Source: a virus. From it: a stretch of DNA of 20,331 nucleotides. A program made the translations under genes and the position numbers. Positions 1-9,122 of the stretch are shown piece after piece. Within the stretch, counting starts at the first letter, position 1; the number at the start of each line of letters is the position of its first letter. The notes beneath the pieces were generated by a model. The model was not told the DNA's origin, made no database searches, and worked only from the letters and a program-made list of their open reading frames with translations. The stretch covers positions 1 through 20,331 of IMG/VR virus record IMGVR_UViG_3300024492_000011; one strand, given 5' to 3'.

Positions 1-3000
1 CGTTCAGTCCGTATAGCCTGTTCGCCAGCGGCGAGCAGGGGGTGTGGTACGACCCCAGCGACCTGACGCCGGAGAAGGTGTCGTGGCGGCGGAACCTGCT
101 GACCTACTCGCAGGACTTCGAGAACGCGGCGTGGACGAAGTCGAACGCCAGCCTGCTGTCGAACCTCGCGCTCTACTCGCAGGATTTCGACAACGCAGCG
201 TGGGGCAAGTCTACAGCGTCGGTCACGGCAAATACGTCGGTGGCTCCCGATGGCACGACGACGGGCGATACCGTCACCTCGTCTGGCGCAACGGGCTACG
301 TCTATCCGGCGAACACGGGCCTGTTTGCGGCGGCGGGTGGCGCGACCTACACCTACTCGGTGTATGCCAAGGCGGGAACGGCAACGTCGATTACCCTGTT
401 GGTTGCCGCTACCGCGACGTACTCGGGAACGTTCAACCTGTCTACGGGCGTGTCTTCGACGGGGACGGCGAACACGACCGTCTCGATGGTTGATGCGGGC
501 AACGGCTGGTGGCGGTGTATCATCACCTGCGCCAGCGTAGCGAACACAGCGTATACCGAGCTACAGATTGGTCGCGTTGCCTCTACGCTCACATTCTTGG
601 TCTGGGGTGCCCAGCTCGTCGTCGGCTCCACGGCGCAGACCTACACGCGCTCGCTGGCGACGGCGGCCCCCGTGATGTTCAGCGACCCGCTCGGCGGGAC
701 GATGGCCGACAAGCTGGTCGAGAACACGGCGGCGGCAAGTCACACCGTCTTCCGTAGCACGACCATCTCCGCCGGTGCTGACTTCACCTACACGGTGTAT
801 GTCAAGGCGGCGGAGCGCGGCTTCTGTCAGGTGCGCTACGAGAACAGCGGCGCGACGAAGTTCTGGGCGGCGAACGTCAACCTGTCGGACGGCACATTCA
901 CCACGCAGGCGTTTGGCTCGCCGACTGGCACCTCAGCGTCAGTCACGGCGGTGGGGAGCGGCTGGTATCGCGTCACGCTTGGCGTGACGGCGGACACTAC
1001 CACGTTTGTCACCGCCGTCTTCACACAGGCTGTACAGGGCACTAACAGCTACACCGGCGACGGCGTGTCTGGCGTCTTGGTGTATGGCGCACAGCTGGAG
1101 CAGGCGTCCACGGCGTCGGCCTACCAGCGGATCACGGACTTCAACTCCGACTTCCTCGCGGCCTTCCCGACCCACGCGCTGTATCAGGACAGCACCTTCG
1201 CCACGCCCGTGACGGCCCTCGGGCAGTCGGTGGGCGGGGTGATTGATAAGCGGCTCGGCGGGTTGGCAGCGGTGGGGCCGGAGCTGGTCACGAACGGCGA
1301 CTTCAGCAGCGCCACGGGCTGGACGTTTACGGGCTCCACGCCCGGGTGGTCCGTGGTGGGTGGCGCGGCCGAGTGCCTGTCCACGGCGGCGGGCAATCGC
1401 TGGATTGTCCAGACGGCGGTGCCGATTGTGGTTGGCCGGACGTATGTGGTGACGCTCGACGCGGTAATCGCGGCCGGAAGTGTGACGCCAGACTTCGGCA
1501 ACAGCCTGTATATCGGCACGTCTGGCAAGAAACAATGGCTGGTGACGGCGACCACTACGCAGTTCCAGATTATGGGGACGAATGCGTTCATCGGCACGGT
1601 GGATAACGTGTCGTGCAAGCTGGTCCCCGGCAACCACGCGATCCAAGCGACCTCGGCCTCGCGGCCCACGTTGCAGGCGCGGGCGAACCTGCTGACCTAC
1701 AGCGAGCAGCTTGACAACGCCGCGTGGCTCAAGACCAACGGTGCGGTGATGGCCAATGGAGCAGTGGCTCCTGATGGCACCACGACGGCTGACGCCTTCA
1801 TCGAGAACACGGCCGCTGGGAATCACTACATCGGGCAATCGCCAACGGTGCTGGCGGGTTCGCACACCTTTAGCGTGTATTACAAGCTGGCATCTGGCAC
1901 CCGCAACATCGCCCTATATCACGCGGGCGTCAATCAGGGTCGGCAGTTCGATGCGAGCGGGAATAGTAGTGCCGGTGCCTTCAATGCCCCCGCCGCGTTT
2001 GCGGTGACGGCTGTTGGGAGTGGCTGGTATCGGGCCTCCATCACGGTCAGCTTGACGGCAAGCTCAAGCGAGTTCCGCCTCTGGTACTCGGACGCGAGCA
2101 ACAACCTCAGTTACACGGGTGATGGCACGAGCGGCTATTACCTCTGGGGCGCACAAGTTGACGCCGCCTCCACCGCCAGCACCTACCAGCGGGTGGTGAC
2201 GGCGACGGACTACGCGGACGTGGGCCTCCCGCGCAACCTGACGTTTGACGGCGTGGACGACTCGCTGGCGACGGCGGGGAACGTGGACTTTGCGACGTGG
2301 ACCGTGGGCACCCGGCGGAACCTGCTGACCGTGCCGACGATGTTTGATGACGCGGCGTGGACGAAGACCCGCTCCAGCGTCACCGCCAACACGACCACGG
2401 CCCCTGACGGCACTACGACGGCTGACAAGCTGGTCGAAGACACCACAGCGTCGGCCACGCACCCGATTTCCGTATCCTACACGACGGCGGCTTCGGCGTA
2501 CACGTTGAGTGTGTATGTGAAGGCGGCAGGCCGTTCGTGGGTGCAGTTGAGTTTGTTGAGTACGACCAATGCGTTCGGCAACTTCAATGTGTCCAACGGG
2601 ACGCTGGGCACGATTGGAGCGGCGGCGACGGCTGGTATTGAGGACGCGGGGAACGGCTGGTATCGGTGTCGGATTACGGCCACGACAGCGGCTGGGGCAA
2701 ACACCGTGGCGTTCTATCCAGCCTCGGCAGACAACACGGTGTCCTACACCGGCGACGGAACCAGCGGCCTGTTCCTCTGGGGTGCCCAGTTGGAGGTCGG
2801 CTCGACGGCGACGGCGTTTCAGGATGTCGGGACGGACAAGGTCACGCTGTTCTCGGGGGTATTCAAGGGCACCGACACCGGGACACAAGAGATTGTAGAG
2901 TTTGGCAACCGAGGAATCACGCAGGCTGGTTCGTTTAGCTTTGACATTCCTGCGTCAGCGGCGTATCGAGCAACGCTTGAGGGAACGCTCCAAACGAGCT

Positions 3001-3314
3001 TCTCCCCGGCTACGTTTGCTGCCCCAATCACTAATGTCGTCTCGCTGTTGTTTGATATCGGAGCCGCCGCTCGCGCTACGGAGGTCATTCCGCGAATCAA
3101 CGGCGTGGTTAACCAAACGAACCCGACGGGTTCTGCGGATGCTGGCACGGGGAACTTCGGCTCATATGTGCTGTTCGTTGGTCGCCGCAACAACGCCACG
3201 CTTCCCTTCAACGGTCGCCTCTTCCAGCTGGTCATCCGGGGCGCGGCGACGGATAGCGTGACCGTCGGCAACGCCGAGCGGTGGGTGGGCCAACTCACGG
3301 GGGTGGCGCTGTGA
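1..3314 (+). CDS. Large modular phage tail/adhesin protein (5' partial)
   Basis: The reading frame is open to the left edge (in frame from base 3), so the true start lies outside the window; the GTG at 42 is only the first start-type codon seen. The visible N-terminus (SPYSLFASGEQGVWYDPSD) matches the opening of phage structural proteins that I know with a GEQGVWYDPSD motif. The body holds four copies of a module of about 165-180 residues. Each opens with N-L-x-x-Y/V-(14 residues)-AAW, has a middle motif GxGWxR, and closes with W/Y-GAQ-L/V. The C-terminal part (about 2230-2290 plus 2830-3314; FDGVDDSL, then VTLFSGVFKGTD) looks like a concanavalin/LamG-type domain. The likely role is binding host surface glycans at the tail or on the virion; this is inference. 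The gene lies just upstream of the head genes and overlaps the next gene by four bases. GC drops towards its 3' end. Confidence 0.75.
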   Translation, partial: FSPYSLFASGEQGVWYDPSDLTPEKVSWRRNLLTYSQDFENAAWTKSNASLLSNLALYSQDFDNAAWGKSTASVTANTSVAPDGTTTGDTVTSSGATGYVYPANTGLFAAAGGATYTYSVYAKAGTATSITLLVAATATYSGTFNLSTGVSSTGTANTTVSMVDAGNGWWRCIITCASVANTAYTELQIGRVASTLTFLVWGAQLVVGSTAQTYTRSLATAAPVMFSDPLGGTMADKLVENTAAASHTVFRSTTISAGADFTYTVYVKAAERGFCQVRYENSGATKFWAANVNLSDGTFTTQAFGSPTGTSASVTAVGSGWYRVTLGVTADTTTFVTAVFTQAVQGTNSYTGDGVSGVLVYGAQLEQASTASAYQRITDFNSDFLAAFPTHALYQDSTFATPVTALGQSVGGVIDKRLGGLAAVGPELVTNGDFSSATGWTFTGSTPGWSVVGGAAECLSTAAGNRWIVQTAVPIVVGRTYVVTLDAVIAAGSVTPDFGNSLYIGTSGKKQWLVTATTTQFQIMGTNAFIGTVDNVSCKLVPGNHAIQATSASRPTLQARANLLTYSEQLDNAAWLKTNGAVMANGAVAPDGTTTADAFIENTAAGNHYIGQSPTVLAGSHTFSVYYKLASGTRNIALYHAGVNQGRQFDASGNSSAGAFNAPAAFAVTAVGSGWYRASITVSLTASSSEFRLWYSDASNNLSYTGDGTSGYYLWGAQVDAASTASTYQRVVTATDYADVGLPRNLTFDGVDDSLATAGNVDFATWTVGTRRNLLTVPTMFDDAAWTKTRSSVTANTTTAPDGTTTADKLVEDTTASATHPISVSYTTAASAYTLSVYVKAAGRSWVQLSLLSTTNAFGNFNVSNGTLGTIGAAATAGIEDAGNGWYRCRITATTAAGANTVAFYPASADNTVSYTGDGTSGLFLWGAQLEVGSTATAFQDVGTDKVTLFSGVFKGTDTGTQEIVEFGNRGITQAGSFSFDIPASAAYRATLEGTLQTSFSPATFAAPITNVVSLLFDIGAAARATEVIPRINGVVNQTNPTGSADAGTGNFGSYVLFVGRRNNATLPFNGRLFQLVIRGAATDSVTVGNAERWVGQLTGVAL
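93..1143 (+). repeat. Adhesin module 1, interrupted by module 2
   Basis: The module opens with NLLTYSQDFENAAW at 93 and continues only to about 161. After an in-frame stretch that is itself a complete module, it resumes near 654 with MADKLVENTAAASH, then AVGSGWYR, SYTGDGVSG and YGAQLEQAS (GAQL at 1086). Removing the inner copy leaves about 182 residues, close to modules 3 and 4. The opening and closing motifs therefore nest like brackets. Confidence 0.7.
162..653 (+). repeat. Adhesin module 2, nested inside module 1
   Basis: A complete module of about 164 residues: opening NLALYSQDFDNAAW at 162, VAPDGTTTGDTV, DAGNGWWRC, and closing WGAQLVVGSTAQTY with GAQL at 606. It lies between the first 23 residues and the remainder of module 1. 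It lacks the SYTGDG motif that precedes the closing motif in the other three copies. Confidence 0.7.
1686..2199 (+). repeat. Adhesin module 3
   Basis: Uninterrupted copy: opening NLLTYSEQLDNAAW at 1686, VAPDGTTTADAF, AVGSGWYR, SYTGDGTSG, and closing WGAQVDAASTASTYQR with GAQV at 2148. It follows a GNHAIQATSASRPTLQAR linker, which is the place where this module usually sits in proteins of this type as I remember them. The first 15 bases (aacctgctgacctac) are identical to those of module 1. Confidence 0.7.
2319..2829 (+). repeat. Adhesin module 4, inside the C-terminal LamG-like domain
   Basis: Opening NLLTVPTMFDDAAW at 2319, APDGTTTADKLVED, DAGNGWYRC, SYTGDGTSG, and closing WGAQLEVGSTATAF with GAQL at 2781. 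The sequence before it (FDGVDDSLATAG) and after it (TDKVTLFSGVFKG) reads as two halves of one domain. The copy therefore appears inserted between them. Confidence 0.65.
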
Positions 3315-8684: not shown

Positions 8685-9122
8685 ATGCCTTTGACCTTCT
8701 TTGCGCCGAAGCCGGGGCGACTGGGGACGCTCCCGGTGCCGCTCACGAGCGGTCGCATCAACACCGGGACGCTCGCCGCGGGCACCCAGACGCACACGAT
8801 GGGCGCGATGCCCGGGAAGTGCTTCATCAACCGCGCGACCGTGTCGGCGGGGACCTACCCCACCGCGGCCACGTCCTGCGTGGCCCGGCTCATCAAGTAT
8901 GACAGCACGGCGAACACGGCCGTGACGCTGACGGCGGACTTGGACATCAACGCCAAGACGGCCCGTGAGGCGCTGGCGCTGGCGCTGACCAGCACCCTGA
9001 CGGAGGCTCAGCGGACGCTGCTGCCTGGCGACACGCTGGAGTTTGAGATTGTGACCGTGGGCGCGGTGTCGGTCCAGCCGGACGACATCGTGTGCGTGGT
9101 CGAGCTGTTCGTCGAGGAGTAA
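8685..9122 (+). CDS. Unknown small protein, candidate head decoration/accessory
   Basis: This 145-aa protein has no motif I recognise. It begins MPLTFFAPKPGRLG and is rich in Thr, Ala and Val in a pattern suggesting beta strands (TLAAGTQTHTMGAMPGKCFINRATVSAGTYP). It has three Cys and an acidic C-terminus. Its place right after the coat gene, with beta-rich composition, fits a capsid decoration or head-completion protein, but this is only positional. GAGGA five bases before the ATG is a proper ribosome-binding site, in contrast to the capsid gene. Confidence 0.6.
   Translation: MPLTFFAPKPGRLGTLPVPLTSGRINTGTLAAGTQTHTMGAMPGKCFINRATVSAGTYPTAATSCVARLIKYDSTANTAVTLTADLDINAKTAREALALALTSTLTEAQRTLLPGDTLEFEIVTVGAVSVQPDDIVCVVELFVEE

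Follow-up and report, generated by a model that had tools for sequence, protein, structure and literature searches.

The nearest sequence of solved structure to the adhesin studied here is Rcc01080, the head spike fibre of RcGTA, the gene transfer agent of Rhodobacter capsulatus. The fluorescently tagged protein showed full binding to encapsulated R. capsulatus and only ~4% binding to a capsule-less mutant (PMC10218006). The fibre structure was resolved for residues 2-10 only (PMC7296036). Insertion between related domains and domain mosaicism in receptor-binding proteins are both already known. Domains are exchanged among phage tail fibres and spikes (Smug et al. 2023; PMC10684548), and in a 2026 ECOD survey 65.8% of domain insertions were between different homology groups (PMC13114784). 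Judged by sequence, the adhesin described below contains the same module as Rcc01080 (E=4.1e-36 with its module 4; E=1.5e-53 for Rcc01080 against the family profile, over profile positions 1-168). However, Rcc01080 has one unbroken module in a 325-residue protein.

The window, i.e., the whole stretch of viral DNA that was analyzed (20,331 nucleotides of IMG/VR record IMGVR_UViG_3300024492_000011), opens with a large structural frame that adjoins portal, capsid and tail genes and matches PHROG 5939 'tail protein' (E=3.5e-83). The GTG at 42, from which residues had earlier been counted, is not the gene start but an internal codon, because the frame is open at the first base of the contig, and relatives have more coding sequence upstream. 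Upstream of WYDPSDL, three relatives (L002, L003 and L010; L numbers denote related contigs from viral metagenomes) have Leu-Gly-rich N-terminal repeats (NLGIQPDLGLLPNYGYLSDLG), which resemble the Leu-Gly peptide that, in RcGTA, pins the head fibre on a pentameric base (PMC7296036). Another, Arg-rich start (RRRRRG) was seen in L027, L035, L082 and L088. In the window the N-terminus of the adhesin is cut by the contig edge, and positions 8685-9119 gave no match to a spike base protein. A Pfam search of the window protein returned no name and no CBM family at E<=1. The parts of the protein are listed in the table.

Table. Parts of the window adhesin (HMM, module profile HMM with profile positions h).
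Feature	Position	Strand	Basis
Spike/adhesin reading frame	3..3311	+	5' end open at contig edge; stop codon 3312-3314
Host-string pieces	30-92, 1137-1286, 1635-1685		Continuity in L046/L047
Host string GEQGVWYDPSDLTPEKVSWRR, first part; resumes past the nest as LYQDSTFATPVTALGQ	30..92	+	Uninterrupted WYDPSDYSTLFQDVAGTTPVTAVEQ in L046/L047
Outer module (module 1), opening part, 23 residues	93..161	+	HMM h1-24; pLDDT 92-97, predicted ordered in empty homologue
Inner module (module 2), complete, 164 residues, in outer loop after residue 23	162..653	+	HMM h1-171
Linker LATAAPVMFSDPL, inner-module exit; type conserved in other nests	654..692	+	Alignment of nests
Outer module, remainder, from module position ~20	654..1127	+	HMM h23-173, h19-170
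Unnamed domain (VTNGDFSSATGW) between two host-string parts	1281..1634	+	Sequence; host string unbroken there in L045-L047
Module 3, uninterrupted	1686..2201	+	HMM h1-172
Lectin-like domain, first part	2202..2318	+	Excised window lectin aligned with uninterrupted L003/L034/L090
Module 4, inserted in lectin-like domain	2319..2828	+	Single full HMM match; empty site NVDF-TATDK in L003
Lectin-like domain, remainder	2829..3311	+	Alignment with L003/L034/L090; weak Laminin_G_3 match in L003

The preliminary description had located four opening motifs (93, 162, 1686 and 2319) and four closing motifs, GAQL or GAQV (606, 1086, 2148 and 2781), the first two modules being ordered open-open-close-close, and we found both the positions and the order to be correct. 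Membership in the module family (RcGTA head-spike-fibre/PHROG 5939) was assigned by a profile match spanning the whole module, NLL..YS opening and GAQ[LV] closing included; modules 2, 3 and 4 and the spliced module 1 all gave such a whole-module match. Over the first 350 residues the profile was matched in three pieces (h1-24, h1-171 and h23-173), and modules 3 and 4 were single full matches. As proposed, the piece in the middle is a complete module situated after residue 23 of module 1. When it was excised and 93-161 was joined to 654-1137, the spliced outer module aligned from end to end with modules 2, 3 and 4 (local BLOSUM62 scores of 190, 295 and 281; best of 100 shuffles 82, 63 and 72, respectively). 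Its length, described earlier as normal, is only near normal, at 184 residues versus 172 in modules 3 and 4, and includes ~6 extra loop residues (VMFSDPL). We also looked for a complete module in 654-1137 by itself and found none: its HMM match is h23-173, its alignment with modules 3 and 4 begins only at module residue ~28, and 654-1139 alone is without the first ~20 module positions. On this sequence evidence, 93-1139 is one module interrupted by a complete second copy of a related module. The split HMM matches, a constant offset and near-identical relatives with an unbroken outer module support self-insertion over tandem duplication, as had been suggested. The accompanying remark that self-insertion is rare needs caution, since the 65.8% of the ECOD survey leaves roughly one third of insertions that do not join different homology groups (PMC13114784).

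Further insertions were found in the same protein. The window lectin-like domain (2202-3311) with module 4 excised aligned with the uninterrupted domains of L003, L034 and L090 (scores 432, 324 and 264), and the insertion site, empty in L003, is occupied in L088, L099 and L110. The Laminin_G_3 match of the L003 domain was weak and below cut-off (E=0.018). In a 6,220 bp metagenome contig (L161) the lectin end is 100% identical to that of the window; therefore, the window phage is present in more than one assembly. The string WYDPSD..LFQD..TPVTAVEQ....GNHAT is continuous in L046 and L047 (WYDPSDYSTLFQDVAGTTPVTAVEQ...GNHAT), whereas the window copy is interrupted by module 1 and by a VTNGDF domain, which is the unnamed domain of the table and had no Pfam match. 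Because the module 1 nest itself sits inside this host string, insertions in the window protein are at least two levels deep.

The same nest order was complete in the viral metagenome relatives L002 and L003, occurred in a different spike architecture in L004, and could be followed up to the contig end in L010, L025, L027, L035 and L036. Further scans of viral contigs added nests in L082 and L099, and 57 stretches in the viral collection, mostly true nests, matched a degenerate DNA pattern of two successive openings. Five candidates (L180, L187, L208, L219 and L220) were of the pattern type W.KMKAVYPFVTD.RNL and are not nests. A second scan, which targeted the closing end of the outer module and did not presume the slot, detected nests in L305, L308, L320, L322 and L334 with the same split position. 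The viral contigs contained 23 complete distinct nests, and the split was at h21-26 in every one and elsewhere in none; in all 19 complete nests compared, the inner module follows exactly 23 residues of the outer one. The nests span two spike architectures and are 34-51% identical to the window, and their inserts stay in frame and complete. Ten contigs of nested phages end in or at the nest (L010, L025, L027, L035, L036, L096, L099, L201, L213 and L215), as would follow from inner modules that differ among the strains of one sample. In bacteria, the double-opening DNA pattern, which is not fully sensitive, gave 73 matches in 84,980 species genomes, and these are chance matches because none matched the module HMM. 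No nest was found among 50,697 phage records; apparent full-length matches in the cultured phages S-TIM54, S-B28 and Nonlabens P12024L were single or tandem modules.

Empty sites were detected in close relatives. L011 has the outer module without an insert, in flanking DNA that is 90-96% identical to the nested L172 and L210, and carries 18 bp (ATTGCAGCTAGTACAGTT, IAASTV) in place of their ~575 bp inner block. The flanks of the empty L304 and the nested L218 are 88-95% identical, L309 and L176 form a further such pair, and in L088 module 1 is unbroken within the window's own spike architecture. An IQ-TREE phylogeny of 43 outer modules, calculated with the insert columns left out, required occupancy to change 10 times, with at least 6 of these changes forced by well-supported branches, and gain and loss could not be distinguished on this tree. 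The compared sequences demonstrate the nest, a single conserved slot, and occupied and empty versions of it in close relatives.

Outer and inner modules had different relationships. In a module tree, all 19 spliced outer modules clustered, joined by two empty ones, whereas inner modules were scattered among ordinary tandem modules, and in 159 of 171 pairwise comparisons between nests, inner identity was below outer. The window inner module is 64% identical to a single module of another spike, L177, 57% to one of L005 and 44% to the best sister inner module, and the closest sequences to the window outer body are sister outer modules (48%). In L003, the inner module and module 3 are mutually closest among the fetched modules (56% at the amino acid level; 67% in DNA over 363 bp), which suggests exchange inside one gene. 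The L218 inner module and the first of the tandem modules in L304 share 86% DNA identity. Because inner modules are more variable and scattered among tandem modules, the slot looks like a site of module exchange. These relationships fit exchange via recombination, which would be the mechanism.

AF2 models were obtained for both the nested and the empty form. Using an alignment of 19 nests, the nested protein was predicted to form two sandwich bodies (residues 37-177 and 205-336), but its outer opening (residues 1-35) was left unplaced (pTM 0.48; pLDDT ~31 for residues 1-30), and therefore we infer the docking of this segment in the nested form. When empty modules were joined to the nested alignment, MAFFT placed their opening on the inner opening. 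The empty outer module of L011, predicted with 125 single modules, reached pLDDT 93.8 and pTM 0.90, with an ordered opening followed by strands 14-17 and 19-23, loop 24-35 and strand 36-40, and the L172 inner module maps to residues 21-26 of this model, the entry to the loop. Since the empty module is predicted to be ordered with its own opening, the socket would be a complete domain, with the slot in a loop predicted to lie after the second and before the third strand of a CBM-like beta-sandwich. Fold and loop position are both predictions only. The best two fold matches of the empty module were the baseplate proteins of the Pseudomonas phages Pa193 (9b45; Z 22.0) and E217 (gp45, 8env; Z 19.2), over 176-177 residues. 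In these proteins, however, the sequence match starts from profile position 19 and no nest was seen in the match, and gp45, as one of the subunits of the baseplate triplex, serves to anchor tail fibres (PMC10329688). The next matches were CBM4, CBM16, CBM61 and CBM22 (Z ~10.5-11.6), whose beta-sandwiches aligned with the model from module residue 1 over 130-140 residues, although with identity of ~8-14% and no Pfam CBM match.

Taken together, the first ~350 residues probably represent a CBM-like adhesin module with a homologous module plugged into a fixed loop, that is, a glycan-binding socket that is repeatedly refilled and whose plug branches off the spike. Each module would bind a cell-surface glycan; such binding by the window modules is likely by analogy, because their nearest solved relative, Rcc01080, binds cells in a capsule-dependent manner. 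The outer module would serve as the conserved socket, its slot being filled, emptied and refilled by homologous recombination among related adhesin genes, and the plugged-in module, held at both ends, would branch off the spike and might alter avidity or glycan range. It could be argued that the nest is a neutral by-product without a role of its own, arising because adhesin genes recombine heavily and the loop tolerates an extra domain. Module swapping is indeed common in phage receptor-binding proteins (PMC10684548), occupancy changes often, and close relatives manage without the insert. However, nests use one slot in 23 of 23 cases, are retained in two spike architectures, also where identity to the window is 34-51%, and keep complete, in-frame inserts, and we regard a purely neutral origin as improbable.

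The order of motifs might also reflect an exchange of segments between two consecutive domains, such that 93-161 would complete the inner body, and the 693-1127 body would be completed by the second opening. The pairing of openings is not directly seen in the nested AF2 model, where residues 1-35 are unplaced. Such an exchange is nevertheless very unlikely, because the empty outer module of close relatives is predicted by AF2 to fold, at the high pLDDT given above, with its own opening segment; in addition, the second opening runs directly into the inner body, and identity among sisters is 96% for outer openings as compared with 71% for inner openings. It is hardly conceivable that the segment 93-161 arose as a stray repeat of the next opening, through an assembly chimera or a broken duplication: the five sister contigs L010, L025, L027, L035 and L036 do end inside the nest, as repeats or strain variation cause, but the same order is present in many independent assemblies, with a matching truncated start downstream.

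If a homologous module is indeed plugged into a fixed loop of the outer module, the slot would be an insertion site in a CBM-like fold that is already used in nature, and the natural filled and empty pairs could provide a direct measure of adding one putative glycan-binding domain. That the slot is filled in some environmental phages and empty in others points to a built-in site for swapping parts of host recognition. A broader proposal, which we offer tentatively, is that phage adhesins possess a dedicated self-plug socket: modules of the same superfamily might be inserted, removed and swapped at a single loop of one glycan-binding-module lineage, yielding a combinatorial, branched receptor-binding repertoire from homologous recombination and not from reverse transcriptase.

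In its formal architecture, the nest is the same as the homologous insertions of the ECOD survey (A1-B-A2, with A and B related; PMC13114784): B is complete, A1 and A2 together make one module, and uninterrupted A is present in relatives. The available part of that survey, however, mentions neither phage adhesins nor the switching of a slot between close relatives. In the mosaicism described by Smug et al. (2023), domains occur in different combinations, but the word 'nested' is absent from the text (PMC10684548). The literature covered, which was partial, contained nothing relevant on nested self-insertion in phage proteins, and as far as we found, a recurrent self-slot that is filled or empty is undescribed in phage adhesins. 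Changes in phage host range are usually pictured as end-to-end swapping of domains. Insertion of whole homologous domains at a fixed loop, which is filled or empty in near-identical phages, would be a second route to such changes.
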